This document shows, piece by piece, positions 1-57,876 of a stretch of 64,000 nucleotides of DNA; position 1 is the stretch's first letter, and every line of letters begins with the position of its first letter. Source of the DNA: Brachyhypopomus gauderio (taxonomy: Eukaryota > Chordata > Actinopteri > Gymnotiformes > Hypopomidae); the NCBI RefSeq assembly GCF_052324685.1, contig NC_135224.1:23446451-23510450 (forward strand), given 5' to 3'. Both the position numbers and the translations under genes were made by a program. The notes under the pieces were generated by a model, which saw only the letters and a list, made by a program, of their open reading frames with translations, made no database searches and was not told the DNA's origin.

Positions 1-1096
1 TGTTACAAAAGGCAGTACAGGAACATTTACTGGTCCACCAGATGGATGTGAAAACGGCGTTCTTACACGCCCCCATCGACTATGAGGTCTACATAAATAC
101 ACCAGAGGGTTATCAAGAAAAAGAGGGTGTAATATATAAGCTGGAGAAATCACTTTATGGACTCAAACAGTCTGGACGAAATTGGAATAGGGTTTTACAT
201 AATTGTTTAACAGAAAATGGATTCACACAAAACCAAGCTGACCATTGTGTATATTCTCAAGAGTCAAAAGAAGGGAAAGTGATCATAATTGTATGGTTCT
301 ATGATCTAATCATCGCTGCAAGGGATGGAAATTAATTGAAAAGAGTGAAAGGGATGCTTGCACAGCAATTCAAGATGAAGGATTTGGGGCAACTCAAGCA
401 TTTTCTTGGTATACATTTTGATTTTTCTGGTGGGTGTATTAAGATGTCACAAGAAAAGTACACGAACAAAACTCTACAGCGTTTTAACATGTCAGAATGT
501 AGGGTAAGAGAAACTCCTTGTGAGCAAAAGCTTGAATACAGTGATGATGCAGTTAAAATGACAGACATCAGAGAGAGAGATGTACAGAGAGGCCGTGGGC
601 AGTCTGATATACCTGACAACCTGCACTAGGCCTGATCTGAGTTTTGTGGTGAGCAGGCTGTCACAGTACCTAGCTGAGCCTACACAGGAGCAATGGGTCA
701 CTGTGAAACATGTCCTGCGATACCTTAAAGGTACATCAAACAAAGGTTTAACCTTTAGGAGAAACAACACTGAGAATCTTGGTATACAAGCCTACAGCGA
801 TGCAGACTGGGCGGCTGATACCAGTGATCGCCGCAGTACAACAGGATACTGTGTGAGCCTAAGTGAGAACAGCGCACTTATTTCATGGAAGACGAAGAAG
901 CAACCTACTGTTGCACTTTCCACATGCGAAGCAGAGTATATGGCACTTGCTTCTACTGTTCAAGAGTGTCTTTACCTAGAACAATTACTGGGGAATATGG
1001 AAAGTTACAAATACACACAAACAATAATACATGAGGACAATCAGGGGACAATGGCATATGTGCACGCTGTTAAGTGACGTAATTTCTGCTAAAAGT
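1..1096 (+). mobile_element. Ty1/copia pol relic, copy 0
   Basis: Reading frames at 42-335, 336-629 and 580-1077 together resemble copia reverse transcriptase followed by RNase H. The first carries MDVKTAFLHA and YGLKQSGRNW motifs; the last carries SDADWA, TGYCVS and CEAEYMAL. The copy is dead. A stop codon separates the first two frames, a GA-rich length change near 570 shifts the third, and the polymerase active-site motif usually written YVDD reads FYDL near 294. The frame ends in a stop after HAVK, and the ISL2EU-like element begins about 22 bp further on. No long terminal repeats are visible. The 5' part lies off the window. Confidence 0.9.
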
Positions 1097-1237
1097 TTAG
1101 GATGGTTGTTGACATCCGGTAGCCATTGAAAGCGTACACTGTGCTAGCTATTCACCTCACCAGTCTTGTAACGAGCATATTTACCGTTATTTACTTGGAA
1201 GTTTCCTTCATCTCCTGTCCGTTTACGTGTCCTAAAC

Positions 1238-2976
1238 ATGACAGTTAAACAAAAAAAAGTATCGTTTCAACAACGTACAGACAGCAGGTCCAACCACCAC
1301 TGCTGTGTACCATTGTGCACAGCATCGACAAGGTGTAATTCCTACCTGAGCTTCCACACCTTTCCAAAGGACTCAGAACTGCAGAAACAATGGGTGGTTA
1401 AGATCAGGAGAGATCATTTTATTATCACGAGTACTTCCCGTGTGTGTTTGCGATATTTTATCGCTGCTCGAACCTCCCAATCCTACTGGACGACGACGAC
1501 TGCGACCTGGAGCTTTTCCTGTGCTATTTCAATGGAATAACTATACTATTCCAACTCCACGACCTGGAGTATGGGAAAGAACAGAGCGTCCACCCAACAC
1601 TGATCTAACAGAGATGCAGACTGACCATGATGATGATGACCCCTTACCGTGTCATGAACATGACTACTGCGTCAGTAATGAGCCTGCTGCTCTTGATCTC
1701 TCCCTCAATGAAAATGAAGAGCTACGCGAGGAGATACCAAGGCTCCGAAAACAAATCGAAGACTTAACTGTCAGCAGCAAGTTCTGTTTGGAGCGGTTTT
1801 CTGCCTCTGATGATGACATACGATTCTTTACCAGGTAAATAAAAAATATGGCAGGACACAGTACACGGATGGGCCTTCTCTGGTGTCTGAAATACATTGT
1901 GAATGAATTAGCCATTATATAACTTTATATATAACTTTTATATTCCACAGATTTGCAAGCCATGCCCACCTCATGGGCTTTTGGAAGCAAATAGAGCCAG
2001 CCACCCACATCATACGGGTTACAAGAGGACAGACTGTTGAGAAGACTGATCAGGTCCCTCACTCTGCCAGTGCAACGGTAAATGTTTTCGTCTTGTCCAT
2101 ACAAAGCATGTTATGTCATCATTTTCAAATTAATCTTTACATCAAAAGAAGTTTTGATAGTCATAATGTAATATGACAATAGGATAATGTATTTTTTCCC
2201 CAGGTTCTTCAACCAATTGATGAGTTTTTTCTCTTCATGAACTACCTGTCATTGGGACTGATGCAAAAGGATTTGGCCCACAGATTTAGAATACATCGGT
2301 CAACTGTTAGTCGTATTATTAACACCTGGGCCAACTTCCTTTATACTGTATTGGGAGCTGTTTCTATTTGGTTAGATGTGGACACTGTGAAAACTCACCT
2401 CCCAGATGTGTTTCAGGACTACGCTGACACTCAAATAATTTTAGATTGCACAGAACTGAGATGTCAAACTCCAAATTCCCTTCTCCTCCAGAGTGAAGTG
2501 TTTTCCACTTATAAATCACACTGTAAATATTCAAAGGGTTGATTGGGATAGCCCCTCATGGCGCAGTGACCTTTGTGTCTTCTCTTTATCAAGGTGCTAT
2601 CAGTGATAAAGAGATCTTAAAGCAGTCTGGCATTGTGGCCCTCCTAGACCCATCTATGGCCATCATGGTGGACAAGGGTTTCCTTGTTGAAGACTGCGTT
2701 CCATGCAAAGTCCACATACCCACGTTTCTGTCAAAGAGAGCTCAACTGTCTAGGTCAGAGATCAGAACGTCACAGTCCATTGCAAGACTGAGAGTCCATG
2801 TTGAGCGTGTGATTCGCAGAGTCAAAGAACATAAAATATTCAGCACAGTGATCCCCCTTTCAATCACAGGGAGCATAAACCAAATTTTTTACTGTTGCCT
2901 GTCTTTTGGTGAATTATCAAAATGGCCCCTTGGTAAAAGCCTGGGCAAACAATGGCTAATCTCAATCCAGAATTAG
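1238..2976 (+). pseudogene. THAP-DDE transposase, copy 0 (broken)
   Basis: There are three exons with GT/AG boundaries: 1238-1834, 1951-2077 and 2204-2976. Exon 1 starts with a THAP zinc finger (CCVPLC, FHTFPKD) whose last part reads VCLRYF where the family has C-x2-H, so a zinc ligand is replaced by Tyr. A frameshift near 1465 separates it from the coiled-coil segment (NEELREEIPRLRKQ). Exon 3 has an HTH-like stretch (HRFRIHRSTVSRII) and the DDE_4 catalytic signatures DCTE, DKGF and HVER. In this copy two extra bases near 2525 shift the frame between the first two catalytic residues. Dead gene. Confidence 0.85.
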
Positions 2977-3054
2977 ACAGATGATGTAATGTGAATGATG
3001 GTGATTTATTATTATTTTATATTTTCTCCAACCTTAAAATGATCCCTTTAAGGT

Positions 3055-3288
3055 CAGGGGTCGGCAAGCCGCGGCTCCAGAGCCGCATGCAGCTAAGCTT
3101 TTGAATAGAATTAATGAGTATTTAATTAACGTATATTATTTTTGAGACTTAAAAAATGTTCGGGTGGAATTTCACAAATGTCCAGTATTTAGTTTCGGTT
3201 CGCTTGAGTGACATTGTCATCGTCACTGAAATAAATTTCCAATTATTTTGCTTTTGTGGCTCCGAGTCAAAAAGCTTGCCGACCCCTG
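3055..3288. mobile_element. hAT-type MITE nested in ISL2EU, copy 0
   Basis: This is a 234-bp non-coding element with inverted ends CAGGGGTCGGCAAG and CTTGCCGACCCCTG. Flanking 8-mers tttaaggt and ctttaggt form an imperfect target duplication, consistent with hAT transposition. The same insertion is at 20898-21131 and 39731-39964, so it predates the array amplification. Confidence 0.85.
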
Positions 3289-3517
3289 CTTTAGGTCATG
3301 CTAGTCTGTAAATATTGGCTGCAATGTTAAGGTACAGTGCAATATGATAAATAGTATAAAATGCTTTCACTTTTATATGTAAAATTGACAACACAATACA
3401 ACATTATGTATTTCTTAACTTTTACTGTATTTGTAAAAATGAAATGAATACAATAGTAATACAATTGACAGAATAATTTGAAATTGTTTTAATTGTTCAT
3501 GAGTTCATTATGATTTT

Positions 3518-5812
3518 CTATTGCTTGGGCATAGAGAGGTATTTTGGCATGTAAGTGTTAAAGAAAAACATGTCACACCTCCTTTTCACCTCTTCTAATA
3601 CACTGCTATCTCTGTAAACTCGCTGCACAAAAATATCATCATGGGCACAGATAACTAAATCACACCACTGCATACCAGTAATCAATAACTGGCCCTGGAT
3701 TTGCCAATAATAACAATGGCTCTCCTTCAATCTGTGTAGGCCTTGTGCCACTTTGAGGAATTTGCAGTCTACATAGCTTTGTGCATTTGGGCACTTAATT
3801 TCAACAAGCCCAAATGATGGACGCTCAAGTGGGTCAAGTTCAAGTTTTTCAGAACCGCATAGTCCTTTAAGGCCCCCGTTTCCATTTCAAGTCCCCTCTT
3901 CATGTGTGCTGTTTGTCGTGTCCCTCGGATTATCCTTTCTGCCAGGCTTTTTGCAGAATGCAGAGATGTTCATTGTGCAGATGAGTGGAAGAGAATCTGC
4001 TTTCATTCCAGCGTAGACTGGTCCAGGATTGAGGGTGGCCCGGTGTGGGAACTCACCGCTGTAGCCCTTGAAAAGTGTACTAAAAGAAGAGTGAATAACA
4101 TTTATTTTTACACATTGTAATCTGTTCACCAGCACAACTGATTGTGAATCACATATCACATGTTATCTGAAGTACAACGAGGCTAAATTAAATTTTGAAG
4201 AGAACAGGGTCTTATCAGATGATCAAAAGCATTTATTTTTTTTACCACACACTGTAATCTGCCTATTAAATTTGGTACTACATACCTAACTCCACTGGCT
4301 GTAGTAGCACCTGGTTTTGGCTTTAGGACAACCATGGCATCCACGGGTCCAGGTTTCACCCACTATTAATTTAAAAGATGGTGTTAGTAAAGTGACTGTG
4401 ATACATTAACTAACATTAAATAATGAAATAAGACAAACCATTGTTGGTGGTTTATGCCACTTCTGTTCTGTCTGTGTGCATGAAAGGACAGGAGGCACGA
4501 CAGACATGCCAGATTCAGAATAATGAGCAGTCTGGAAAAGCAATGCAACCAAGTGGTTGCAGATTCCGCAACCAGCAACACAAGAGCAGTTGCTGTTAAT
4601 GAGCACAACTGGCATTGAATCACGTAATGTCATCCGAAATACACAAGAGGCAAAATGTAATATCTTGAAAAGAAGACTTCAGCAATGTCAATAGGCGCAA
4701 TTTCTGTCCCATCATGTTGTTAGTGGTGAATGTCACTTGTCTATTGTCTCATGTAACGTTTGTGCTGTTTTGCATCACTCTTAAAACACTTGGCTATACT
4801 GTCGTTCTATTCTACAGTGTTGTGCATGGTTCAATCTACTAGTTCACTGAGCAACTATAAACTATAAAATATATTTTAGATTTAAACTTCATTTTCACTC
4901 CAGATGAAATGCTTACACATAGGAGTGAAACAGGCCTACTTATATTTATATTATTTTGTTGTTTCCACCACCAACAACAGAACAGTGCAGGTTTTACTTC
5001 AACTGCTTCTTGAAGAGTGTTATCAGAATATGTTAATATGGTATAAGTGTTGAAGCCATATGTTAATAAAGAAGATAAAAGATTTGAAAGACAGATTGAC
5101 AGATTTGAGAAAATGCAGTTTGAAGAATAGCTGAGGTGAACTATATTCTGCTTTTGAGTCATAGAAGTAGATAACAATAGCTCGAACTGTAAAATAAACT
5201 CCCATTTGTTTACTATAGGCAAAACAGACTGCTAATGATTCCCACTCAGCTACTCTGCATTTGGCTACCATTGTAAGCTTTGAAAACCAATGCCTATGGC
5301 TATCACAGCTTACGTGAAGTAAGAGCAAGGATAAAAGATTGAACTTGTGTTGAACTAACTTTTGAACTTGTTCAACAGAACTTTGAACGTGACACTGAAC
5401 AGAACTCGTGTCATTTTAACCAGTCCTACTCTCAGCTGGTGTGGCGTATCTGTTTTCTTCATAGATCTGTAGCAGTGAGCCCTCACTGTTATCTCGTTAG
5501 CCTTACTTTTGCCTGATACTTCCATCAGAAATACAAACATGTTTTTAAAAGGCATTTCTAGTACTAGGACAGGTCGGTTCGTTACTAAAAACAACATCAC
5601 TTCATTAGACTGCCACCTCAGGCTAGCTAGCTAACTAGCGTCAGCCACTTACCTTCAAAATTGCAGAGGTAGGATGAAACGTAGAACTTGAAACCCTTTT
5701 CAAGTTTACTCTGTGGCGTTGTACTTGATGCTCTGACAATACGACGCACATCGTTGACGGTAAACTTCGGTAACTCCAACAGGCACCTTGTGAATTTCAT
5801 AGACTCGGCCAT
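3518..5812 (-). pseudogene. YqaJ/SWIM companion gene of ISL2EU, copy 0
   Basis: The first exon is 5653-5812, starting MAESMKFTR and ending at a GT donor after NFEG. A frame at about 5423-5600 carries HCYRSMKKTDTPHQ. A SWIM-type zinc finger (CSCVAG...CNHLVALL) lies at about 4406-4600. The YqaJ nuclease core is near 3518-3830, with FGLVEIKCP (the E-x-K pair) and YYWQIQGQLLITG. In known ISL2EU elements this gene accompanies the transposase; its role in transposition is not settled. Exons between the SWIM and nuclease parts could not be joined in one frame and a frameshift is likely near 3850-3890, so I treat it as decayed. Confidence 0.75.
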
Positions 5813-5860
5813 AAACATCTGCACTTCCGCATACCAACCGGAAATATGGTTACATCCTTA

Positions 5861-7446
5861 CACCAAACGAGGAAGTGGTGCGTGCACCTAGTTTCAAATG
5901 ACAGTAAAATTGACCAATCATATCTTCCCTCTTAGTGGGCGGGCTTAACTGTATGATAATTTCCGCCCGCTGTGGCGACGCTAGCAGACGTGCGCGTTGT
6001 TTACAAAGAGGATCACGGAGCTGTGGACCATATTGTTGGAACCTTATTTTGCTTAAAAAGTTATCTAGTACAGATATTATTGTTTATTGCGTTTCTATAA
6101 CAGTCTATAGCACCAATGACATTTGAAAATCCTAGAGAATTCAATGCGTTTTGAATTGAATGAATTTTAGCATGAAATAGTTGATTAAGATGATAGTTGA
6201 TTTGGTAAGTGCTCTGGATAAGAGCATCTGTTAAAGTCGTATACATTTAACTCCAGTGCCAGCCCCCTACTGCCTGACCGGATAAACCTACACCATGATG
6301 GACATTACTACATCTTTTCCTTTTCTTTATTTTCTTTCTGTCTAAATTGTTGTTGTTGTCATGGTGACCGGTGTCGGCCAGAGGAGGATGGGTTCCCCCC
6401 CTGAGTCTTGGTTCCTCTCAAGGTTTCTTCCTCATGCAAAAAACTAGGGAGTTTTTCCTTGCCACTGTCGCCTTTGGCTTGCTCACTAGGGGCTAGGACT
6501 CGGCACTTGTAAAGCTGCTTTGTGACAACAACTGTTGTAAAAAGTGCTATATAAATAAAATTTGATTGATTGATTGAGTTGGGGAAAATGGCTTTTTCAT
6601 TGTATGCGCCTTATGTTTGGAATGAGCGTCAAGCTGTCTTAAACCTAGGCTTCTTACCCTCTCTGAAATTGTGTTGTGTATAGAAGTATTGTATGTCATT
6701 GTGTATAATTGTTTTGTTCTGCAAATATTGGCCAGGACTCCCTGGGAGAAGAGTTATTGTAACTCAGTGAGATTCCTCCTGGTTGAATAAATGTTAAATA
6801 AAAATAAATATATAAAACAGATGATGCATCTGAAATAAACATAATTTAAAAACAAAATACTAAAATAGGCTAAAACAAACAAAAATGGACTAACAAACAA
6901 ACAAACAAAAAAGCCCAGACACTGCAGTATTGAAATTCTGTAATAAAGTCATTTTTTTCAGGTAAGAAGAGCCTGCTGAGGGGTAGTTCAAAGTCAAAGT
7001 CTACTTTATTGTCAAATCTGTGATACGTGCGGGACATACACAGGATTGAAATTACGTTACTCTCAGACTCCATAGTGCAGCGGTAAACATTTACATAAAA
7101 TTAACATTAACTAAAACAGTAAAAAAAGGAATAGTACAATAGTAACGGTAAGTACAATAGTAAAGATAAAAAATATAGCTGAGTTGTTTATATATATAAT
7201 AAAATAAATAGAGGTCTCTGAAATTTACATTCAAGTAAGTGGCGTATGCAGCAGTAAGTAAACATACTGTATGTGCAAAGTGAATGTATGAGGAATCTGG
7301 TGTAATTACGATTAAAGTGAACGTATGCAATGAATTAGAAATATAATGTGCAAATGTAACAGGAGTGCAAATTGAAGAAAGAGCAGGGAGTGAGTTGATC
7401 CTCCTGACTGGTGGACTGGTGCCAGGGGGATCTGCCTCCTGAACTG
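5861..7446. other. Repeat-rich spacer around the unit junction, copies 0/1
   Basis: No gene is seen. The implied duplication junction is at 6097/6098. Positions about 6205-6240 carry the tail motif GATAAGAGCATCTG common in fish SINE-like repeats. 6262-6577 is a separate interspersed repeat. About 7000-7100 contains a sequence around CTACTTTATTGTCAAATC that looks like another dispersed fish repeat. A minus-strand AATAAA at 7005-7010 could serve the HIPK-like gene. The same layout recurs at 23703-25288 and 42536-44121. Confidence 0.6.
6262..6577 (-). repeat. Teleost interspersed repeat with TTGA tail, copy 1
   Basis: This is the reverse complement of the repeat family found at 15569-15763 and 16039-16255; the shared core includes AGCTGCTTTGTGACAACA and the GGTTTCTTCCT segment. 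It ends in a short TTGA tandem tail, as retrotransposed non-LTR or SINE copies do. Copies are at 24104-24419 and 42937-43252. The family name is not assigned. Confidence 0.7.
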
Positions 7447-14054
<6,608 letters not shown>

Positions 14055-14293
14055 CCACACTTCCGATATCTCACGACGAAAAAAAATATCCAGTTTATTT
14101 ACCCCAGATCCACATATATGATTCAATACGTTACTAGTTCGCTAGCTCTGGCGCCATCCACCAGCGATATAACACTGAATCTGTGTCCATTTTACGTTCG
14201 CCACCCCCCCCTCCCCCGCTCAACAAAATACACTCGCCACCGGCTCCAGGTTAAAATCTCACTCCAAGCGAACGTCAAAAGTTGGCAACCCTG
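14055..14293 (-). mobile_element. Truncated CAGGGTTGCCAAC-family element, copy 1
   Basis: This 239-bp segment is present in copies 1 and 2 but replaced in copy 3 by a different 102-bp sequence (51072-51173). Read on the minus strand it begins CAGGGTTGCCAAC, a hAT-like terminus. Its remainder is similar to part of the interior of the 986-bp hAT element at about 37930-38110, including the GAGATATCGGAAGTGTGG stretch. The other terminus is missing. Confidence 0.65.
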
Positions 14294-14542
14294 TGAATGT
14301 GGCATTTAAAATCAAACCAGATTGAATTACACTTAAAGCTAGATTTTACATTCTTCTTCCTCCCTAAGTTAAAGCTACGAAATACACAAGCAGCGCGATC
14401 GTATGAGCCACTAAGAAGCCTAAAGACTCAAACAGAAATATACACTGGAAAATTATGCTATATTATTTTATGTAATTAATTAATATTATTAATATTATTA
14501 GCACAAAACAAAATTAAGTGAAAGGGATTTTCATTTAACATG

Positions 14543-15197
14543 TTTATTTAACAGAAAATCAACAATATGCAACAAACGTGTAACTAACAAATTAAAGATG
14601 AGCGTCTTGCTGGTGCCAGGTGGAGGTAGTCTTTTAGGCATTTTTCAGCCTCTGCTTTCATAGGAGCGGGTAGCGCTGGGTTCTTCACTGCGGCAGCTGT
14701 GTGTCAAAATGTAGAATATTATTACTATTCTTGTTAAAGAGGCATAAGGGCTACACATTTATCAGTTATATTACCCTGAATACATAAAGTAAACTGCATG
14801 TAAGAAATAAATCATCTAATGTATCTGTTATTAGGCTAGGCTTAAGGTATTAGGTTACAAGCATAGTAAGTAATTGGAGGAGGAGTAGTATTTTCCAAAA
14901 TATACAAAGGTGTTGTTATTTACCGGTCATTTTGCCGTAAAACTTTAAAAACCACATGACCTATAAGAGTCCGTAAATGCTATGCGCTTCATGCTAAAGC
15001 TAAAAATGTAAGATGTAAGTCGTTCTAATATACTCACCAATAACAAGCTGTCCACAGGCTGTCTGTTTTAATCCTCGCTTGTGTCCCCTGCCACACCAGT
15101 TAAGGCTTTTTGCCAGGTTTGGGGTGAAGACCTTGCTGGAGATCCACCATATCGTTCTCTTTATTGTGTGGCCTCCACTTAGTGACAGCATGTTGGT
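14543..15197 (-). CDS. DUF4806-type gene, 3' exons, copy 1
   Basis: Two exons, 15038-15197 and 14584-14696, have a good acceptor (ttatttcag), donor (GTGAGT) and second acceptor (acacag), and join in frame. The peptide contains GGHTIKRTIWWISSKVFT, then LAKSLNWCGRGHKR, then a tail with AEKCLKDYLHLAP and a TAG stop. This order matches the C-terminal DUF4806 domain of dispersed fish proteins, whose function is unknown. A minus-strand AATAAA lies at 14543-14548, about 36 bp past the stop, so this is a genuine 3' end. No upstream exons are recognised before the array's next elements, so the gene may be a 3' fragment that was carried into the unit. Confidence 0.65.
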
Positions 15198-15491
15198 CTG
15201 AAATAAAGCACAATAAGAATAGAAATGGATAAACAGCAATCTCACTGCACCAACTGCACCTTCATAACATATGTCCTAGGAAATGTACATTCTGTTTTGC
15301 ATTTTGTAATCAGGGTTCTTATTTAAAATCAGTTAATATCTTATTCATTGTATTGACTTAAAGTAAGTGATTAGAACGTTTTTGACTAATAATATAAAAC
15401 TGTATACAGTCTTGGCTAAAATATTTGCACTTCTTTTTAGAAAATATTTAGATGCAATATTGACAGATTGGTGAACCTCTACCCATCTCTG

Positions 15492-15500
15492 GAGAGAAAG

Positions 15501-15531
<31 letters not shown>

Positions 15532-15568
15532 TAGATAGATAGATAGAGAGAGAGATAGAGATAGATAG
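15492..15568. repeat. GATA/GA microsatellite, copy 1
   Basis: A mixed GATA and GA tract directly precedes an interspersed repeat. It is unchanged in copy 2 (33331-33407) but replaced by a nearly pure GA tract in copy 3 (52679-52750). Confidence 0.9.
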
Positions 15569-15763
15569 TCAAGTCAAATTTATTTATATAGCGCATTTTA
15601 CAAAACATGTTGTCACAAAGCAGCTTTACAATCATATGGGTCCAGATCCCTAATGAGCAAGCCAAAGGCAACAGTGGCGAGGAAAAACATGATGGTGGAG
15701 ATTAGGAAGAAACCTCGGGAGGACCAAGACTCAAAAGAGAACCCATCCTCCACTGGGCGGCCC
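15569..15763 (+). repeat. Teleost interspersed repeat (TTATTTATATAGCGC type), copy 1
   Basis: It begins GTCAAGTCAAATTTATTT, continues with a CAAAGCAGCTTTACA core and ends near GGGCGGCCC. The family occurs three times per unit, twice on plus and once on minus (6262-6577). Confidence 0.75.
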
Positions 15764-15819
15764 TTTAGCACAAGTCCATATTTGTGGAGATAGAGAGTTG
15801 GTGGTAGCTAGATTTGATT

Positions 15820-17022
15820 TACAGTTTTTCTCAGTCGATTTGGTACATTTCTTTCATCATGATTTTCAAAACAGTTGCAAAGCACATAATTCACTCAAAA
15901 TTCTTTGTTTTTGCTTCAAAAGCAAATATTTAGGTCAGTCAATTTGTCAGTGCCATCAGAGTATCTAGTCTGTGTGCCATTAACTATGAACAAGGCAGTC
16001 AAAATAATTATGTTGTCATGTTGTCAGTGCAACTATAAGTCAAAGTCAAATTTATTTATATAACGCTTTTCACAACACATGTTGTCACAAAGCAGCTTTA
16101 CAGGATTTACATGGTTAACAATACTATGGGTCCATATCCCTAATGAGCAAGCCAAAGGCGACAGTGGTGAGGAAAAACTCCCTATGATGGTGGGGAATAG
16201 GAAGAAACCTCGGGAGGACCAAGACTCAAAAGGGAACCCATCCATTGGGCGGCCCGTTACAGTCACAAGTCACAGTCAGTGCAGACTGTAAGTACATTCT
16301 GATGGAAACTAGCTAAGCTTTTGATTTCAAGAATGCTGCACATGCTGTGGTATATCAAATGAAACAATACATTTTACACACAAAATACAAAGTTACACAG
16401 AACACAAAGTTACACATGACTGTATTTGGGAGACTGATAGAAAGTAATTGGGCTGGAATCAATTTTGTACAGCAATATTGTTTGACTGTATTGTTTGCAC
16501 TGCAATTTGTTGACAAAAACAAATCTGATTGAAATTCAGAAAAGACAGACAGCTGACTGGAAAAACTGCAAAATTAGAAGAAACTTATTCTACACATTCA
16601 AAACAACCTGAGCACATACAGCCTCCAGAGAATATACACATTTCTGAATTTACATACATTTTCTCTATGAAATGTTTGAACAATTGAACACAGACACAGT
16701 TGTTCTTCCAATATTCAGCTGCACCCAGTGACCAGCTTCAGCCATTGTAAAACCATGACTTACATGTACAACATGGTCCACAATTGTTGCCCTTATTTCA
16801 CTGTTTTGTCCCCTCAGCCTTACACCACACAGTCTTACTCCTCTTCTTGGCTGTTCACCCTGCACATGGCCTTGTGTTTCCATTATGAGACTTTGTGATA
16901 CTGCAGTGTTTAGCCTCTATAAATGTTTGCCAATTACAGTAAAGGTTCATGAGACGCACCTCTGACCTGTAGTTGAGACCATTGGTTGATCTAAACCTTC
17001 ACAAATTCCCTTTTTTACTGTA
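15820..17022 (-). mobile_element. Tc1/mariner-like remnant, copy 1
   Basis: The ends read TACAGT and ACTGTA, giving CAGT/ACTG termini within TA dinucleotides. Inside, on the minus strand at 16665-16883, a frame contains SEIRATIVDHV and TMAEAGHWVQ, resembling the N-terminal helix-turn-helix of fish IS630/Tc1-type transposases. No catalytic domain is seen. An interspersed repeat (16039-16255) is nested within. Family assignment is tentative. Confidence 0.55.
16039..16255 (+). repeat. Teleost interspersed repeat nested in mariner-like remnant, copy 1
   Basis: This is a second plus-strand member of the family at 15569-15763, sharing the CAAAGCAGCTTTACA core and the GAAACCTCGGGAGGACCAAG segment. 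It splits the mariner-like sequence, so it inserted later. Confidence 0.7.
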
Positions 17023-40193: not shown

Positions 40194-42487
40194 CTATTGC
40201 TTGGGCATAGAGAGGTATTTTGGCATGTAAGTGTTAAAGAAAAACATGTCACACCTCCTTTTCACCTCTTCTAATACACTGCTATCTCTGTAAACTCGCT
40301 GCACAAAAATATCATCATGGGCACAGATAACTAAATCACACCACTGCATACCAGTAATCAATAACTGGCCCTGGATTTGCCAATAATAACAATGGCTCTC
40401 CTTCAATCTGTGTAGGCCTTGTGCCACTTTGAGGAATTTGCAGTCTACATAGCTTTGTGCATTTGGGCACTTAATTTCAACAAGCCCAAATGATGGACGC
40501 TCAAGTGGGTCAAGTTCAAGTTTTTCAGAACCGCATAGTCCTTTAAGGCCCCCGTTTCCATTTCAAGTCCCCTCTTCATGTGTGCTGTTTGTCGTGTCCC
40601 TCGGATTATCCTTTCTGCCAGGCTTTTTGCAGAATGCAGAGATGTTCATTGTGCAGATGAGTGGAAGAGAATCTGCTTTCATTCCAGCGTAGACTGGTCC
40701 AGGATTGAGGGTGGCCCGGTGTGGGAACTCACCGCTGTAGCCCTTGAAAAGTGTACTAAAAGAAGAGTGAATAACATTTATTTTTACACATTGTAATCTG
40801 TTCACCAGCACAACTGATTGTGAATCACATATCACATGTTATCTGAAGTACAACGAGGCTAAATTAAATTTTGAAGAGAACAGGGTCTTATCAGATGATC
40901 AAAAGCATTTATTTTTTTACCACACACTGTAATCTGCCTATTAAATTTGGTACTACATACCTAACTCCACTGGCTGTAGTAGCACCTGGTTTTGGCTTTA
41001 GGACAACCATGGCATCCACGGGTCCAGGTTTCACCCACTATTAATTTAAAAGATGGTGTTAGTAAAGTGACTGTGATACATTAACTAACATTAAATAATG
41101 AAATAAGACAAACCATTGTTGGTGGTTTATGCCACTTCTGTTCTGTCTGTGTGCATGAAAGGACAGGAGGCACGACAGACATGCCAGATTCAGAATAATG
41201 AGCAGTCTGGAAAAGCAATGCAACCAAGTGGTTGCAGATTCCGCAACCAGCAACACAAGAGCAGTTGCTGTTAATGAGCACAACTGGCATTGAATCACGT
41301 AATGTCATCCGAAATACACAAGAGGCAAAATGTAATATCTTGAAAAGAAGACTTCAGCAATGTCAATAGGCGCAATTTCTGTCCCATCATGTTGTTAGTG
41401 GTGAATGTCACTTGTCTATTGTCTCATGTAACGTTTGTGCTGTTTTGCATCACTCTTAAAACACTTGGCTATACTGTCGTTCTATTCTACAGTGTTGTGC
41501 ATGGTTCAATCTACTAGTTCACTGAGCAACTATAAACTATAAAATATATTTTAGATTTAAACTTCATTTTCACTCCAGATGAAATGCTTACACATAGGAG
41601 TGAAACAGGCCTACTTATATTTATATTATTTTGTTGTTTCCACCACCAACAACAGAACAGTGCAGGTTTTACTTCAACTGCTTCTTGAAGAGTGTTATCA
41701 GAATATGTTAATATGGTATAAGTGTTGAAGCCATATGTTAATAAAGAAGATAAAAGATTTGAAAGACAGATTGACAGATTTGAGAAAATGCAGTTTGAAG
41801 AATAGCTGAGGTGAACTATATTCTGCTTTTGAGTCATAGAAGTAGATAACAATAGCTCGAACTGTAAAATAAACTCCCATTTGTTTACTATAGGCAAAAC
41901 AGACTGCTAATGATTCCCACTCAGCTACTCTGCATTTGGCTACCATTGTAAGCTTTGAAAACCAATGCCTATGGCTATCACAGCTTACGTGAAGTAAGAG
42001 CAAGGATAAAAGATTGAACTTGTGTTGAACTAACTTTTGAACTTGTTCAACAGAACTTTGAACGTGACACTGAACAGAACTCGTGTCATTTTAACCAGTC
42101 CTACTCTCAGCTGGTGTGGCGTATCTGTTTTCTTCATAGATCTGTAGCAGTGAGCCCTCACTGTTATCTCGTTAGCCTTACTTTTGCCTGATACTTCCAT
42201 CAGAAATACAAACATGTTTTTAAAAGGCATTTCTAGTACTAGGACAGGTCGGTTCGTTACTAAAAACAACATCACTTCATTAGACTGCCACCTCAGGCTA
42301 GCTAGCTAACTAGCGTCAGCCACTTACCTTCAAAATTGCAGAGGTAGGATGAAACGTAGAACTTGAAACCCTTTTCAAGTTTACTCTGTGGCGTTGTACT
42401 TGATGCTCTGACAATACGACGCACATCGTTGACGGTAAACTTCGGGAACTCCAACAGGCACCTTGTGAATTTCATAGACTCGGCCAT
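40194..42487 (-). pseudogene. YqaJ/SWIM companion gene, copy 2
   Basis: This matches copy 1 (first exon 42328-42487 with EFPKF). The SWIM finger is near 41081-41273 and the YqaJ core near 40194-40506. It shares the suspected breaks. Confidence 0.75.
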
Positions 42488-42936
42488 AAACATCTGCACT
42501 TCCGCATACCAACCGGAAATATGGTTACATCCTTACACCAAACGAGGAAGTGGTGCGTGCACCTAGTTTCAAATGACAGTAAAATTGACCAATCATATCT
42601 TCCCTCTTAGTGGGCGGGCTTAACTGTATGATAATTTCCGCCCGCTGTGGCGACGCTAGCAGACGTGCGCGTTGTTTACAAAGAGGATCACGGAGCTGTG
42701 GACCATATTGTTGGAACCTTATTTTGCTTAAAAAGTTATCTAGTACAGATATTATTGTTTATTGCGTTTCTATAACAGTCTATAGCACCAATGACATTTG
42801 AAAATCCTAGAGAATTCAATGCGTTTTGAATTGAATGAATTTTAGCATGAAATAGTTGATTAAGATGATAGTTGATTTGGTAAGTGCTCTGGATAAGAGC
42901 ATCTGTTAAAGTCGTATACATTTAACTCCAGTGCCA

Positions 42937-43252
42937 GCCCCCTACTGCCTGACCGGATAAACCTACACCATGATGGACATTACTACATCTTTTCCTTTTC
43001 TTTATTTTCTTTCTGTCTAAATTGTTGTTGTTGTCATGGTGACCGGTGTCGGCCAGAGGAGGATGGGTTCCCCCCCTGAGTCTTGGTTCCTCTCAAGGTT
43101 TCTTCCTCATGCAAAAAACTAGGGAGTTTTTCCTTGCCACTGTCGCCTTTGGCTTGCTCACTAGGGGCTAGGACTCGGCACTTGTAAAGCTGCTTTGTGA
43201 CAACAACTGTTGTAAAAAGTGCTATATAAATAAAATTTGATTGATTGATTGA
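42937..43252 (-). repeat. Teleost interspersed repeat with TTGA tail, copy 3
   Basis: This is the counterpart of 6262-6577. Confidence 0.7.
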
Positions 43253-44121
43253 GTTGGGGAAAATGGCTTTTTCATTGTATGCGCCTTATGTTTGGAATGA
43301 GCGTCAAGCTGTCTTAAACCTAGGCTTCTTACCCTCTCTGAAATTGTGTTGTGTATAGAAGTATTGTATGTCATTGTGTATAATTGTTTTGTTCTGCAAA
43401 TATTGGCCAGGACTCCCTGGGAGAAGAGTTATTGTAACTCAGTGAGATTCCTCCTGGTTGAATAAATGTTAAATAAAAATAAATATATAAAACAGATGAT
43501 GCATCTGAAATAAACATAATTTAAAAACAAAATACTAAAATAGGCTAAAACAAACAAAAATGGACTAACAAACAAACAAACAAAAAAGCCCAGACACTGC
43601 AGTATTGAAATTCTGTAATAAAGTCATTTTTTTCAGGTAAGAAGAGCCTGCTGAGGGGTAGTTCAAAGTCAAAGTCTACTTTATTGTCAAATCTGTGATA
43701 CGTGCGGGACATACACAGGATTGAAATTACGTTACTCTCAGACTCCATAGTGCAGCGGTAAACATTTACATAAAATTAACATTAACTAAAACAGTAAAAA
43801 AAGGAATAGTACAATAGTAACGGTAAGTACAATAGTAAAGATAAAAAATATAGCTGAGTTGTTTATATATATAATAAAATAAATAGAGGTCTCTGAAATT
43901 TACATTCAAGTAAGTGGCGTATGCAGCAGTAAGTAAACATACTGTATGTGCAAAGTGAATGTATGAGGAATCTGGTGTAATTACGATTAAAGTGAACGTA
44001 TGCAATGAATTAGAAATATAATGTGCAAATGTAACAGGAGTGCAAATTGAAGAAAGAGCAGGGAGTGAGTTGATCCTCCTGACTGGTGGACTGGTGCCAG
44101 GGGGATCTGCCTCCTGAACTG

Positions 44122-49970
<5,849 letters not shown>

Positions 49971-50335
49971 TTAACCAATCTGAATATCTTATTTAGTTAT
50001 TAGAACAAACTTTTTGAATAAAAAGCAGAAGAAAACGACACGGAATTCATTCGTAGTCGACCGTAAATGTTGTTCTGTTTGCACATCACTATGACAACGC
50101 GTAATGTAAACTAGCGGTTTCCATGGAAGCTCAATTCGAATTCTACGATTGTGGTAACAGGCGCCACAACGCGCTACGCAGCGCTGCTTTATTAGCATAT
50201 AAGATCAAATATAAGGTCGTTTGATTTCAAAACAATACACAAAACAACAGCACTGTTTTAAATGTGCGTGTTTGGGTAGCCAGCTACAGTTTTGCTTTTT
50301 CTCTAATTCGCTCGCTAGCTATTACCTAACCACCA

Positions 50336-50359
50336 CCCCCCCCCCCCCCCCCCCCCCCC
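50336..50359. repeat. Poly-C run, copy 3
   Basis: The C tract is about 24 bp here, against about 12 bp at 13325 and 8 bp at 31167. It lies upstream of the kinase gene. Confidence 0.85.
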
Positions 50360-51071
50360 AAACGATATTAATATGTAGTTAAGATATATGCTCGTTTGGG
50401 TAGGATTTAATCCAGTAGCTCTACCTTACCTAACAAACTAGCAATATTTTATTTAATGGTAGTTTATTTTCAAAGCACACAATCTTAACGTCTTAATGCA
50501 CTCTCGAGTTTACCGCTGGAATTACAAGAGGTTGATACATTTCTTTATGTATTTGTAACTTATATATTTGTAACGTTATATAAGCGAACCATTCAGTCAA
50601 ATAGCTATTTGTTGCGAAACGAAACACAGTTCATTTCAAGCATCTTCAAATGCTTTAGCCAATATCCAACACTTTTTTTTTTATCTGAAAAAGCAACATT
50701 AAAATGAAAGTATTTCCAAGTATTTCAAGCAGTCGTACGAACCCTAAAATTGGGTCTGTCCACTACAAACTCCTTTATGCTTTTAATTCTTCAGCCGAAC
50801 GCTTGGTGAAGGGGGTTGTATAGAAGGATAAACTGATAGCACATGTACATCTCAGAGACTCTGCTGGATGTAACACAGTTCGTCTGGAATACGTATTTAA
50901 TAGAGCGCGTGCTCATCGCCAACACGTCTCTGATAGTCTGTGGTGGATCGTGAAAGACCTCCAGCAGCTGCATTACAGACCTACCTGGCTGCGTCATGAT
51001 CGCGCCTGCGTCTCGGAGACGCTTATGAGATCTCTCCTAGACTATTTAATACGGCGTTTATTCATCTGCAG

Positions 51072-51173
51072 TACGTCTTTTAAACAGCAGGCTTTGATGC
51101 CAAAATGACGTTCATACGCTGCATTCCAGACTTATATGTACAGTATAGCTAAAATGCAGAATCTGAACGTACC
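51072..51173. other. Copy 3-specific replacement segment
   Basis: These 102 bp stand where copies 1 and 2 carry the truncated CAGGGTTGCCAAC element. They may be the older sequence, replaced in the other copies by an insertion with deletion. Nothing recognisable is inside. Confidence 0.6.
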
Positions 51174-51418
51174 TGAATGTGGCATTTAAAATCAAACCAG
51201 ATTGAATTACATTTAAAGCTAGATTTTATATTCTTCTTCCTCCCTAAGTTAAAGCTACGAAATACACAAGCAGCGCGATCGTATGAGCCACTAAGAAGCC
51301 TAAAGACTCAAACAGAAATATACACTGGAAAATTATGCTATATTATTTTATGTAATTAATATTATTAATATTATTACCACAAAACAAAATTAAGTGAAAG
51401 GGATTTTCATTTAACATG

Positions 51419-52385
51419 TTTATTTAACAGAAAATCAACAATATGCAACAAACGTGTAATTAACAAATTAAAGATGAGCGTCTTGCTGGTGCCAGGTGGA
51501 GGTAGTCTTTTAGGCATTTTTCAGCCTCTGATTTCATGGGAGCGGGTAGCGCTGGGTTCTTCACTGCGGCAGCTGTGTATCAAAATGTAGAATATTATTA
51601 CTATTCTTGTTAAAGAGGCATAAGGGCTACACATTTATCAGCTATATAACCCTGCAACTCTTATAGTCAATGAATCCCACCCCATGTTTGAGACTTTATC
51701 AGCTCTGGGCAGCACCTTCTGTGACCGACTGCGTCACCCAAGGTGTGTTACAGAGCGTTACCGGAGATCCTTCACCCCTGCTGCAGTTAGACTGTACAAT
51801 CAGCACTGCTCTCGTTAGCAATACACTTTTTGCCTATAGTTCTTTTCGCTTATATTCTATGTATATATGTATCATGTAAGTTTGGAGTCTTGTCCTCTGT
51901 ACCACTGTCACTTTGCTGCTGGGAGTTGTGAATTTCCCCATTGCGGGACTAATAAAGGCTTATCTTAATACATTAATTAAACTGCATGTAAGAAATAAAT
52001 CATCTAATGTATCTGTTATTAGGCTAGGCTTAAGGTATTAGGTTACAAGCATAGTAAGTAATTGGAGGAGGAGTAGTATTTTCCAAAATATACAAAGGTG
52101 TTGTTATTTACCGGTCATTTTGCCGTAAAACTTTAAAAACCACATGACCTATAAGAGTCCGTAAATGCTATGCGCTTCATGCTAAAGCTAAAAATGTAAC
52201 ATGTAAGTCGTTCCAATATACTCACCAATAACAAGCTGTCCACAGGCTGTCTGTTTTAATACTCGCTTGTGTCCCCTGCCACACCAGTTAAGGCTTTTTG
52301 CCAGGTTTGGGGTGAAGACCTTGCTGGAGATCCACCATATCGTTCTCTTTATTGTATGGCCTCCACTTAGTGACAACGTGTTGGT
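51419..52385 (-). CDS. DUF4806-type gene, 3' exons, copy 3
   Basis: Exons are 52226-52385 and 51460-51572, with a polyadenylation signal at 51419-51424. Compared with copies 1 and 2 the stop is TAA rather than TAG, and several residues differ (for example NTLSLS for NMLSLS, and KRVLK for KRGLK). The frame and splice sites remain intact. The intron between the two exons has gained a LINE-like tail at about 51655-51977. Confidence 0.6.
51655..51977 (+). mobile_element. LINE-type 3' fragment, copy 3 only
   Basis: The plus frame contains FCDRLRHPRC, then TERYRRSFTPAAVRLYN, the C-terminal signature of fish non-LTR retrotransposon proteins. An untranslated stretch follows, ending in AATAAAGGCTTATCTTA. 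It is 5' truncated, as expected for LINE insertions, and absent from copies 1 and 2. Confidence 0.75.
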
Positions 52386-52677
52386 CTGAAATAAAGCACA
52401 ATAAGAATAGAAATGGATAAACAGCAATCTCACTGCACCAACTGAACCTTCATAACATATGTCCTAGGAAATGCACATTCTGTTTTGCATTTTGTAATCA
52501 GGGTTCTTATTTAAAATCAGTTAATATCTTATTCATTGTATTGACTTAAAGTAAGTGATTAGAACGTTTTTGACTAATAATATAAAACTGTATACAGTCT
52601 TGGCTAAAATATTTGCACTTCTTTTTAGAAAATATTTAGATGCAATATTGACAGATTGGTGAACCTCTACCCATCTC

Positions 52678-52678
<1 letters not shown>

Positions 52679-52743
<65 letters not shown>

Positions 52744-52750
52744 TAGATAG
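52679..52750. repeat. GA microsatellite, copy 3
   Basis: A nearly pure GA run replaces the GATA/GA mixture of the other copies. Confidence 0.9.
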
Positions 52751-52753
52751 TCA

Positions 52754-52950
52754 GTCAAGTCAAATTTATTTATATAGCGCATTTTACAAAACATGTTGTC
52801 ACAAAGCAGCTTTACAAATCATATGGGTCCAGATCCCTAATGAGCAAGCCAAAGGCAACAGTGGCGAGGAAAAACATGATGGTGGAGATTAGGAAGAAAC
52901 CTCGGGAGGACCAAGACTCTAAAGAGAACCCATCCTCCACTGGGCGGCCC
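52754..52950 (+). repeat. Teleost interspersed repeat, copy 3
   Basis: This is the counterpart of 15569-15763. Confidence 0.75.
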
Positions 52951-53006
52951 TTTAGCACAAGTCCATATTTGTGGAGATAGAGAGTTGGTGGTAGCTAGAT
53001 TTGATT

Positions 53007-54207
53007 TACAGTTTTTCTCAGTCGATTTGGTACATTTCTTTCATCATGATTTTCAAAACAGTTGCAAAGCACATAATTCACTCAAAATTCTTTGTTTTTG
53101 CTTCAAAAGCAAATATTTAGGTCAGTCAATTTGTCAGTGCCATCAGAGTATCTAGTCTGTGTGCCATTGCCTATGAACAAGGCAGTCAAAATAATTAGTC
53201 ATGTTGTCAGTGCAACTATAAGTCAAAGTCAAATTTATTTATATAACGCTTTTCACAACACATGTTGTCACAAAGCAGCTTTACAGGATTTACATGGTTA
53301 ACAATACTATGGGTCCATATCCCTAATGAGCAAGCCAAAGGCGACAGTGGTGAGGAAAAACTCCCTATGATGGTGGGGAATAGGAAGAAACCTCGGGAGG
53401 ACCAAGACTCAAAAGGGAACCCATCCATTGGGCGGCCCGTTACAGTCACAAGTCACAGTCAGTGCAGACTGTAAGTACATTCTGATGGAAACTAGCTAAG
53501 CTTTTGATTTCAAGAATGCTGCACATGCTGTGGTATATATCAAATGAAACAATACATTTTACACACAAAATACAAAGTTACACAGAACACAAAGTTACAC
53601 ATGACTGTATTTGGGAGACTGATAGAAAGAAATTGGGCTGGAATCAATTTTGTACAGCAATATTGTTTGACTGTATTGTTTGCACTGCAATTTGTTGACA
53701 AAAACAAATCTGATTGAAATTCAGAAAAGACAGACAGCTGACTGGAAAAACTGCAAAATTAGAAGAAACTTATTCTACACATTCAAAACAACCTGAGCAC
53801 ATACAGCCTCCAGAGAATATACACATTTCTGAATTTACATACATTTTCTCTATGAAATGTTTGAACAATTGAACACAGACACAGTTGTTCTTCCAATATT
53901 CAGCTGCACCCAGTGACCAGCTTCAGCCATTGTAAAACCATGACTTACATGTACAACATGGTCCACAATTGTTGCCCTTATTTCACTGTTTTGTCCCCTC
54001 AGCCTTACACCACACAGTCTTACTCCTCTTCTTGGCTGTTCACCCTGCACATGGCCTTGTGTTTCCATTATGAGACTTTGTGATACTGCAGTGTTTAGCC
54101 TCTATAAATGTTTGCCAATTACAGTAAAGGTTCATGAGACGCACCTCTGACCTGTAGTTGAGACCATTGGTTGATCTAAACCTTCACAAATTCCCTTTTT
54201 TACTGTA
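53007..54207 (-). mobile_element. Tc1/mariner-like remnant, copy 3
   Basis: This is the counterpart of 15820-17022, with TACAGT/ACTGTA ends kept. The minus-strand helix-turn-helix frame is at 53850-54068 and the nested interspersed repeat at 53222-53438. Confidence 0.55.
53222..53438 (+). repeat. Teleost interspersed repeat nested in mariner-like remnant, copy 3
   Basis: This is the counterpart of 16039-16255. Confidence 0.7.
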
Positions 54208-54562
54208 TCTGAATGTTCACCTGCGAATAATTTAATCAAGTTAGGAAAAAATTACCAAAATGTAACGACAAAAAAAAAGAAGTAAGACGATGTTTTGGAG
54301 AGTAAGACAATTCAACAGACAATACGTACAACACATTTTGATAAACATGACATAAGCAATAATGTATTTGTTCTGTCCCGCACACTTGCAGCGGGATTTG
54401 TTAGTTTGTTTAATCCCAGTTGGTGAACATTTTAATTCTCTTTTGCGCCACAAGGGGGCAGCCTTGCTACATTTGTGCTCCTGTTTTTGTTTAAATCGCG
54501 CCATCTAACGGTTAGTGGCTATAAGCAGCAAGGAGATTAGGAAACAGCCATTCGAGCACAAA

Positions 54563-55594
54563 AAATCCAACTAGAGATAGAAGGGCACCAAGTTACCTAG
54601 GTGACTACGTAACTGAAGACGAGGATAGTGATGGAATGCATATCACAGTAGACTACTGCTGTAGAGCAGTGTGTGGCATTCCACAGACTTATGACGAAGC
54701 AATGCAATCAGACAATTCAAAAGAATGGAGAAAAGCAATGGATGAAGAAATCCAATCTCTAAATGAGAACAAAACCTTCACCCCAACAACACTAGCAGTG
54801 GGCAAGAAACCCGTGGGGGGTAGGTGGGTTTACGCAATCAAGTCTGGTGTAGATGGGAATGACCAATACAAGGCTCGATTTACCGCTAAGGGCTACAGCC
54901 AGAAAATGGGAGTAGACTATGGGGAAACGTTTTCACCAACAGCAGACCTAACGAGTAAATAGGGTTTTACATAATTGTTTAACAGAAAATGGATTCACAC
55001 AAAACCAAGTGTCACAAACTCCTTGTGAGCAAAAGCTTGAATACAGTGATGATGCAGTTAAAATGACAGACATCAGAATGTACAGAGAGGCCGTGGGCAG
55101 TCTGATATACCTGACAACCTGCACTAGGCCTGATCTGAGTTTTGTGGTGAGCAGGCTGTCACAGTACCTAGCTGAGCCTACACAGGAGCAATGGGTCACC
55201 GTGAAACATGTCCTGCGATACCTTAAAGGTACATCAAACAAAGGTTTAACCTTTAGGAGAAACAACACTGAGAATCTTGGTATACAAGCCTACAGCGATG
55301 CAGACTGGGTGGCTGATACCAGTGATCGCCGCAGTACAACAGGATACTGTGTAAGCCTAAGTGAGAACAGCGCACTTATTTCATGGAAGACGAAGAAGCA
55401 ACCTACTTTTGCACTTTCCACATGCGAAGCAGAGTATATGGCACTTGCTTCTACTGTTCAAGAGTGTCTTTACCTAAAACAATTACTGGGGAATATGGAA
55501 AGTTACAAATACACACAAACAATAATACATGAGGACAATCAGGGGACAATGGCCTATGTGCACGCTGTTAAGTGACGTAATTTCCGCTAAAAGG
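54563..55594 (+). mobile_element. Ty1/copia pol relic, copy 3 (internally deleted)
   Basis: This copy keeps the base missing near 17645 in copies 1 and 2, so its 5' frame runs open from 54636 to 54962. It also lacks the 7-bp GA-rich expansion, so the RNase H frame runs 55009-55575. It has lost most of the reverse transcriptase through at least three deletions, at about 54958, 55009 and 55016, including the region of the polymerase motif. Each array type is therefore broken differently. Confidence 0.88.
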
Positions 55595-55623
55595 TTAGGA
55601 TGGTTGTTGACATCCGGTAGCCA

Positions 55624-55943
55624 TTGAAAGCGTACACTGTGCTAGCTAACGATACTATTCCAACTCCACGACCTGGAGTATGGGAAAGAACAGAGCGTCC
55701 ACCCAACACTGATCTAACAGAGATGCAGACTGACCATGATGATGATGACCCCTTACCGTGTCATGAACATGACTACTGCGTCAGTAATGAGCCTGCTGCG
55801 CTTGATCTCTCCCTCAATGAAAATGAAGAGCTACGCGAGGAGATACCAAGGCTCCGAAAACAAATCGAAGACTTAACTGTCAGCAGCAAGTTCTTTTTGG
55901 AGCGGTTTTCTGCCTCTGATGATGACATACGATTCTTTACCAG
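55624..55943 (+). pseudogene. Transposase exon 1 remnant, copy 3
   Basis: Only the coiled-coil part of exon 1 survives (NEELREEIPRLRKQ through DDDIRFFTR and the GT donor). The THAP finger and the catalytic exons are deleted. Confidence 0.8.
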
Positions 55944-56132
55944 GTAAATAAAAAATATGGCAGGACACAGTACACGAATGGGCCTTCTCTGGTGTCTGAA
56001 ATACATTGTGAATGAATTAGCCATTATATAACTTTATATATAACTTTTATAACAGGGTCTTATCAGATTATCAAAAGCATTTATTTTTTTACCACACACT
56101 GTAATCTGCCTATTAAATTTGGTACTACATAC

Positions 56133-57589
56133 CTAACTCCACTGGCTGTAGTAGCACCTGGTTTTGGCTTTAGGACAACCATGGCATCCACGGGTCCAGG
56201 CTTCACCCCCTATTAATTTAAAAGATGGTGTTAGTAAAGTGACTGTGATACATGAACTAACATTAAATAATGAAATAAGACAAACCATTGTTGGTGGTTT
56301 ATGCCACTTCTGTTCTGTCTGTGTGCATGAAAGGACAGGAGGCACGACAGACATGCCAGATTCAGAATAATGAGCAGTCTGGAAAAGCAATGCAACCAAG
56401 TGGTTGCAGATTCCGCAACCAGCAACACAAGAGCAGTTGCTGTTAATGAGCACAACTGGCATTGAATCACGTAATGTCATCTGAAATACACAAGAGGCAA
56501 AATGTAATATCTTGAAAAGAAGACTTCAGCAATGTCAATAGGCGCAATTTCTGTCCCATCATGTTGTTAGTGGTGAATGTCACTTGTCTATTGTCTCATG
56601 TAACGTTTGTGCTGTTTTGCATCACTCTTAAAACACTTGGCTATACTGTCTTTCTATTCTACAGTGTTGTGCATGGTTCAATCTACTAGTTCACTGAGCA
56701 ACTATAAACTATAAAATATATTTTAGATTTAAACTTCATTTTCACTCCAGATGAAATGCTTACACATAGGAGTGAAACAGGCCTACTTATATTTATATTA
56801 TTTTGTTGTTTCCACCACCAACAACAGAACAGTGCAGGTTTTACTTCAACTGCTTCTTGAAGAGTGTTATCAGACAGATTTTAGAAAATGCAGTTTGAAG
56901 AATAGCTGAGGTGGACTATATTCTGCTTTTGAGTCATAGAGGTAGATAACAATAGCTCGAACTGTAAAATAAACTCCCATTTGTTTACTATAGGCAAAAC
57001 AGACTGCTAATGATTCCCACTCAGCTACTCTGCATTTGGCTACCATTGTAAGCTTTGAAAACCAATGCCTATGGCTATCACAGCTTACGTGAAAAGTAAG
57101 AGCAAGGATAAAAGATTGAACTTGTGTTGAACTAACTTTTGAACTTGTTCAACAGAACTTTGAACGTGACACTGAACAGAACTCGTGTCATTTTAACCAG
57201 TCCTACTCTCAGCTGGTGTGGCGTATCTGTTTTCTTCATAGATCTGTAGCAGTGAGCCCTCACTGTTATCTCGTTAGCCTTACTTTTGCCTGATACTTCC
57301 ATCAGAAATACAAACATGTTTTTAAAAGGCATTTCTAGTACTAGGACAGGTTGGTTCGTTACTAAAAACAACATCACTTCATTAGACTGCCACCTCAGGC
57401 TAGCTAGCTAACTAGCGTCAGCCACTTACCTTCAAAATTGCAGAGGTAGGATGAAACGTAGAACTTGAAACCCTTTTCAAGTGTACTCTGTGGCGTTGTA
57501 CTTGATGCTCTGACAATACGACGCACATCGTTGACGGTAAACTTCGGTAACTCCAACAGGCACCTTGTGAATTTCATAGACTCGGCCAT
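56133..57589 (-). pseudogene. SWIM companion gene remnant, copy 3
   Basis: The first exon (57430-57589), the HCYRSMKKTD frame (about 57200-57377) and the SWIM zinc finger (about 56250-56470) remain. The YqaJ nuclease core is deleted. Confidence 0.7.
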
Positions 57590-57876
57590 AAACATCTGCA
57601 CTTCCGCATACCAACCGGAAATATGGTACCATCCTTACACCAAACGACGAAGTCGCGCGTGCACCTAGTTTCAAATGACAGTAAAATTGACCAATCATAT
57701 CTTCCCTCTTAGTGGGCGGGATTAACTGTATGATAATTTCCGCCCGCTGTGGTGACGCTAGCTGACGTGCGAGTTGTTTACAAGGAGGAACACGGAGTTG
57801 TGGACCTTATTTTGTTGGAACCTTATTTTGCTTAAAAAGTTATCTAGTACAGATATTTTTGTTTATTGCGTTTCTA

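Follow-up and report, generated by a model that had tools for sequence, protein, structure and literature searches.

Large tandem arrays whose units carry genes are known from the amplicons of the mammalian Y chromosome and from arrays of the DXZ4/D4Z4 type. Among fish, the HIPK family of protein kinases has been called expanded in the genome of the anglerfish Lophius litulon (PMC7729161). The window described here, a stretch of 64,000 nucleotides of the fish Brachyhypopomus gauderio (C14:23446451-23510450, where C14 denotes the contig), contains several copies of a HIPK-like gene. We consider it likely that these copies form a young tandem duplication, four units long, of a segment of 17.84 kb, comprising the HIPK-like gene and pieces of copia and Harbinger elements, that is nested in a far larger three-gene array and has grown by unequal crossing-over. 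The surrounding C14:23376451-23640450 was analysed as well, and the assembly searched amounts to 796.5 Mb in 840 contigs. The sampled contigs shrink from 55.0 Mb (C1) via 11.3 Mb (C21) to 4.17 Mb (C22), pointing to about 21 chromosomes and a set of unplaced pieces.

The initial annotation of this DNA had described a recent head-to-tail array of more than three units, each with a HIPK-like gene whose kinase exons are open, that continues beyond the left edge. The tandem arrangement is indeed present in the assembly. In a self-comparison of the window, positions 1-19669 matched 17846-37508 head to tail with 99.95% identity over 19,669 bases, and positions 1817-12153 matched 38495-48826 with 99.84%. 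The right end of the array is patchier, with pieces of 96.7-99.3% identity that stop at 57,876. Moreover, every one of the six gene copies analysed in full has an open kinase frame. The claim of more than three units holds with revised borders: the natural unit border lies at 6097/6100, 23939/23942 and 42772/42775, and since these are three whole junctions the assembly contains four units, with one HIPK-like gene apiece and a period of 17.84 kb. The array does run on past the left edge, by 11.9 kb only and with one further kinase copy before it ends, and thus extends from there to position 57,876. Its parts are as follows (window coordinates; the units themselves carry no strand).

1..6097: right part of unit A; the whole unit spans -11859..6097 and has its own HIPK-like gene left of the window.
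6098..23939: unit B, delimited by self-comparison, pairwise profiles and the junction probe.
23940..42772: unit C, with an extra hAT-like insertion, delimited in the same three ways.
42773..57876: unit D, with which the array ends on the right; it is diverged and has deletions rightward of about 47.6 kb.
23800..24080, plus strand: unit junction (join 23939/23942), the end of an 8.16-kb repeat fused to an element of about 480 bp; the same join recurs at 6097/6100 and 42772/42775.

A probe of 281 bases across this border (window 23800-24080) gave 1817 first-look candidates in the assembly, 40 places of which were scored. The whole probe was recovered at three of the 40, all inside the window. 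The other 37 were partial, 33 of them with the left part only (bases 1-140 or 8-140) and four with the right part only (143-281). The left part is the end of the 8.16-kb repeat that adjoins cep164, and the right part belongs to the 480-bp element, which occurs inverted elsewhere in the macro-unit.

The outer units A and D are diverged only toward their outer ends, and the inner units are more alike than these ends. More specifically, there are 2 substitutions between B and C over 17,839 bases, apart from the insertion in C. A and B mismatch at 25 of 17,524 aligned bases, with 24 of these mismatches lying at or left of B position 10,663. Between C and D there are 166 mismatches in 14,401, one before 10,954 and the other 165 from 10,954 rightwards, and A and D differ at 187 of 14,086 positions (1.3%). 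The order of the mosaic is accordingly [a x][y x][y x][y d]. We read this divergence profile as the footprint of unequal crossing-over within the kinase gene, the exchange having presumably taken place in the following interval.

10702..10953 (unit B coordinates; no strand): putative unequal-crossover interval in the intron between exons 2 and 3 of the HIPK-like gene; the last A-B substitution lies at 10663, an 8-bp gap at 10694, and the first C-D difference of the diverged run at 10954.

In the history that we propose, the novel junction would have formed once and the two resulting units would subsequently have diverged at their outer ends. Unequal crossing-over inside the kinase gene would then have multiplied the middle x-y segment, after which a hAT-like element would have inserted into one copy. 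Each gene copy would yield a short HIPK with little beyond the kinase domain, the kinase dose would track the copy number, and selection over the longer history of the family would have retained the kinase and not the tail. A first duplication via recombination between two Harbinger copies was considered and rejected; because the junction joins unlike sequences with 2 unassigned bases, an end-joining or microhomology event fits better.

The array constitutes a local fourfold step in a three-gene array of about 3 Mb, as assembled and judged by the positions of the marks, which occupies the end of C14 together with C22 and C160. The initial annotation overlooked this nesting. The other two genes of the macro-unit are found to the right of unit D.

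59606..64000, plus strand: first exons of a cep164-like gene; matches extend to about 71.1 kb, beyond the window, and TOG-like exons then follow at 71.4-72.3 kb.

A protein search with HIPK exon 2 returned 90 matches among the 150 scored of 199 candidates. We classed 64 of these as HIPK-like, with a stop in two. Forty are full-length copies at 98-100% identity (11 on C14, 26 on C22 and 3 on C160), and the remainder consists of 3 truncated copies on C22, 14 copies on C3, 5 on C21 and one each on C29 and C4. Five further matches look like ordinary HIPKs (C1, C2 twice, C11 and, partial, C5), and the other 21 are weaker kinase matches. The WW exon of cep164 gave 83 matches from 99 candidates, all scored, none with a stop. 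With the 1 kb upstream of cep164, 238 candidates were obtained, of which the 40 scored matched at 90-100% identity. For the TOG-like exon all 150 scored places (271 candidates) matched, again without a stop. Its assignment is weaker, with 26.5 bits to Pfam CLASP_N, below the cut-off of 27, and no match to the PDB at E 0.001.

The HIPK and cep164 marks alternate regularly over many units, as in a gene-bearing macro-array. On C22, 29 HIPK marks (3 truncated) alternate with 27 cep164 marks, save at 3 spots with adjoining HIPK marks 52-233 kb apart, and on C160 the order is HWHWH, with 3 HIPK (H) and 2 cep164 (W) marks. The 11 HIPK and 6 cep164 marks of C14 alternate as well, save for the window's run of four HIPK copies and a lone copy at 22.11 Mb. 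On C22 the spacing is mostly 40-60 kb, on C14 mostly 50-135 kb, and among the marks on the three contigs HIPK copies less than 20 kb apart occur only in the macro-unit of the window. Samples of 1 kb were compared from the contig ends. Those from the end of C14, from the start of C22 and from the end of C160 are 98.7-99.6% identical to the 8.16-kb repeat, and no telomere run was seen in them; a 1-kb sample of the C160 start had no match in the fetched C14 stretch.

This nesting has a practical consequence. The initial annotation had proposed read depth relative to cep164 as a check on the copy number. A single-copy cep164 flank is rejected by the multi-copy upstream kilobase and WW exon, and depth relative to cep164 would mislead because the gene belongs to the multi-copy macro-unit. 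It should be taken as a warning that the obvious single-copy control is multi-copy in this genome.

Several other features of the array and its relatives were observed. On C22 the HIPK strand flips within the interval 0.82-1.05 Mb, so that the macro-array falls into two large halves of inverted orientation, and C22:1.36-1.73 Mb has 7 TOG-like matches where matches to HIPK exon 2 and the cep164 WW exon were not found. Two separate HIPK-like arrays, at C3:1.4-81.5 kb and C3:6.85-6.93 Mb, lie on opposite strands and have 7 copies apiece, which for the most part follow one another at about 12 kb. Arrays of cep164-like and TOG-like exons with a period of about 21-22 kb, in which no HIPK exon-2 match was found, occur at C10:25.15-25.27 Mb, C29:2.82-2.96 Mb and C16:3.44-3.56 Mb, those on C10 and C29 extending to the contig end. 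Very large arrays of the TOG-like exon are found at C9:17.5-19.0 and 22.5-23.2 Mb, on C15, on C25 and at C10:6.1-6.3 Mb, and an evenly spaced shorter piece of the cep164 WW exon (44 residues) at C16:7.7 and 11.8-12.0 Mb and on C141. Finally, at C7:25.69-25.73 Mb four kinase matches with a weak relationship to HIPK are spaced at about 14.4 kb and perhaps represent another kinase tandem array.

The HIPK-like gene lies on the minus strand and has nine modelled exons bounded by AG and GT, its exon borders and start codon being a model from the genomic sequence. The copies with their gene in the window are the following.

7874..12923, minus strand: HIPK-like gene of unit B, with 9 exons, preserved AG/GT borders and an open kinase frame.
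25716..30763, minus strand: HIPK-like gene of unit C, modelled exons 30763-30530, 29411-29047, 28381-28258, 27582-27463, 27363-27277, 26987-26806, 26458-26283, 26082-25985 and 25864-25716.
44549..49952, minus strand: HIPK-like gene of unit D, whose kinase part differs from that of B and C by two amino acids.

The modelled splice borders are intact in all six copies analysed in full, which are those of units A to D and two single copies that lie further to the right. By its kinase domain the predicted product is a member of the HIPK family: it matches HIPK2 (PDB 6p5s) over 364 residues with an E-value of 1.1e-193, the next family, DYRK1A, following at 1e-61. The VAIK lysine, DLKPDN, DFG and YLQTRYY are present in the kinase alignment and are the same in all six C14 copies. 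The model places the start codon just before the kinase domain, and the N-terminal region of ordinary HIPKs would then be missing, an absence that is inferred only, no search having been made upstream of exon 1. The DNA of exon 8 contains what we take to be a stretch resembling a SUMO-interacting motif (SIM).

The ratio of replacement to synonymous change (dN/dS), calculated by the method of Nei-Gojobori on the kinase part, is 0.35 between unit C and the C29 paralog (34.8 synonymous and 45.2 replacement differences; Fisher p 1.1e-5), 0.40 between unit C and C3 (p 2.2e-5) and 0.47 between unit C and C21:9.31 (p 2.1e-4). For C29 versus C3 it is 0.29, and here, as in the pairs with unit C, replacement changes per site are significantly fewer. 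Across the comparisons with diverged paralogs the kinase-part ratio runs from 0.35 to 0.51. In addition, a comparison of exon 2 in 28 of the 40 array copies revealed 14 variable codons, 8 synonymous and 6 replacement, the latter below the simple site-count expectation (P 0.005). These values point to a family that was constrained in its longer history; they speak of past constraint only, and that the young copies work is a prediction.

The units also carry mobile elements, two of which (given without strand) are insertions that mark single units.

37509..38494: hAT-like insertion of 986 bases in unit C, absent from A and B and lying where D has a deletion; it is flanked at 37501-37508 and 38495-38502 by the 8-bp target duplication CATACGAT.
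48827..49175: MITE-like (miniature inverted-repeat transposable element) insertion of 349 bases with inverted ends in unit D.
17650..18919, plus strand: copia piece of unit B, RVT_2 (E 2.3e-49) followed by an open frame; also in A and C and partly in D.
19017..20816, plus strand: THAP domain piece and Harbinger-type transposase (DDE_Tnp_4, HTH_Tnp_4) of unit B; the transposase is also in C, has a broken frame in A and is absent from D.

The label hAT is our reading of the terminal sequence and of the target duplication of 8 bp. The 40 near-full-length places scored for this element (from 4607 candidates, and including the one in the window) are all 99-100% identical, from which it follows that it moved recently; in fact it was apparently active very recently. 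The open frame behind the copia RVT_2 domain, which has no Pfam match, can be read as RNase H. Elsewhere inside the macro-unit, some 74-86 kb to the right of where the window starts, we noted retrovirus-like frames and a gypsy-like one, 1451 residues long.

Several observations weigh against parts of this account, some of which concern the number of units. B and C could be two alleles placed end to end or an assembler loop. More specifically, the array may in part be a product of the assembly, B and C being the alleles of one unit without and with the insertion, so that the true array would have three units per chromosome. B and C are possibly alleles because only 2 substitutions and the insertion separate them, a difference within the allelic range, and the assembly does break in such sequence, as the contig ends inside the 8.16-kb repeat illustrate. 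The initial annotation had named a phased-haplotype artefact as a possibility, and for B versus C it still is one, whereas A, C and D are distinct by sequence; copy-specific insertions, which it had adduced as an argument, do set C and D apart, C by that of 986 bases with its target duplication and D by that of 349 bases. The robust minimum is three units. A probe at C14:22.6 Mb, 0.85 Mb left of the window, was found at full length once, which as a single informative probe argues mildly against retained second haplotypes, and the mosaic ends of A and D require at least one exchange anyway. We regard an array of three units as unlikely. It also bears on the proposed history that the outer ends of A and D may stem from exchange with other macro-units instead of age: in its tail exons A is closer to the single copy V1, with 2 differences in 423 sites, than to B, with 5 in 423.

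Whether the kinase copies matter to the fish is a separate question, on which two alternatives compatible with growth by unequal crossing-over have to be weighed. The array could be inert repeat DNA, its kinase copies being recent pseudogenes carried along with transposons and their number neutral. Behind the kinase domain the frame is shifted in exon 7, identically in all six C14 copies, in none of which the long C-terminal regulatory region is in frame; the C29 paralog has the same shift and those on C3 and C21:9.31 do not (frames derived by hand from coordinates). Open frames in near-identical copies were rejected as evidence of selection: they are weak evidence because 10 of the 12 Harbinger transposase places in this stretch are likewise open over their full length, though only 3 of the 14 places of the copia reverse transcriptase there are full length and free of gaps. 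Three HIPK copies on C22 are truncated, and exon 2 of the C21:7.61 paralog (C21:7610476-7610841) lacks the catalytic aspartate, two residues being missing, and is otherwise open. Moreover, among the six C14 copies the variability of the kinase exons (7/1112) is not significantly lower than that of the introns (35/3497; p 0.36), and the dN/dS of exon 2 reaches 0.54 against two ordinary HIPKs and 0.86 between one C14 and one C22 copy (3 replacement and 1 synonymous changes). Against inertness stand a dN/dS of 0.29-0.41 among the C14, C29 and C3 copies, the stop in just 2 of the 64 HIPK-like exon-2 copies and the shortage of replacement changes among the variable codons of exon 2, and on balance we judge it somewhat improbable. 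A sex-linked or drive-related germline amplicon, in which the cep164-like, TOG-like and HIPK-like copies compete by germ-line dosage, would accord with the nature of the genes (one CEP164-like, one weakly TOG-like), with the lack of stops in all TOG-like and cep164-like and in 62 of the 64 HIPK-like scored exon matches and with the extension of several arrays to contig ends. The arrays are spread over many contigs and not confined to one chromosome, and we hold this alternative to be quite improbable. A more comprehensive idea must likewise be considered speculative and is more probably wrong than right by a wide measure: that a co-amplified trio of CEP164-like, TOG-domain microtubule-binding-like and HIPK-like genes in megabase arrays has its dosage tuned by nested unequal crossing-over, possibly in a germline conflict (drive or sperm competition), with a stripped, kinase-only HIPK-like member under lasting purifying selection. 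If true, with germ-line expression of the three genes, it would offer a testable dosage conflict in a fish.

The young tandem duplication nested in a larger array, our preferred interpretation, provides an unusually legible record of array growth, with a single unique junction, a crossover interval narrowed to some 250 bases within a gene, graded divergence of the ends and a fresh transposon that marks one unit. Every element of it is of a known kind; the scale and the gene trio are notable. Beyond PMC7729161 our literature search found nothing on such arrays, which is not a claim of their absence. That paper shares with our data the expansion of the HIPK family in a fish and differs in that the passages which state this expansion mention no arrays or macro-units. 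With HIPK1-3 the array copies share the kinase domain over its full length, the best PDB matches being HIPK2 (6p5s, 7ncf) and HIPK3 (7o7i). They differ from these in the modelled start just before the kinase domain and the shifted frame behind it, in having DLKPDN and not DLKPEN, and in an intron between IE and MS, where three ordinary-looking copies (C2 twice, C11) continue through. The head-to-tail units, the inner ones more alike, have the character of a tandem array with concerted evolution. With the amplicon and macrosatellite arrays the locus has in common large gene-bearing units, a homogenised centre with diverged edges and a change of strand within the array, whereas it is distinguished from them by a three-gene macro-unit of tens of kb in which sub-arrays of 8.16 kb and 17.84 kb are nested.

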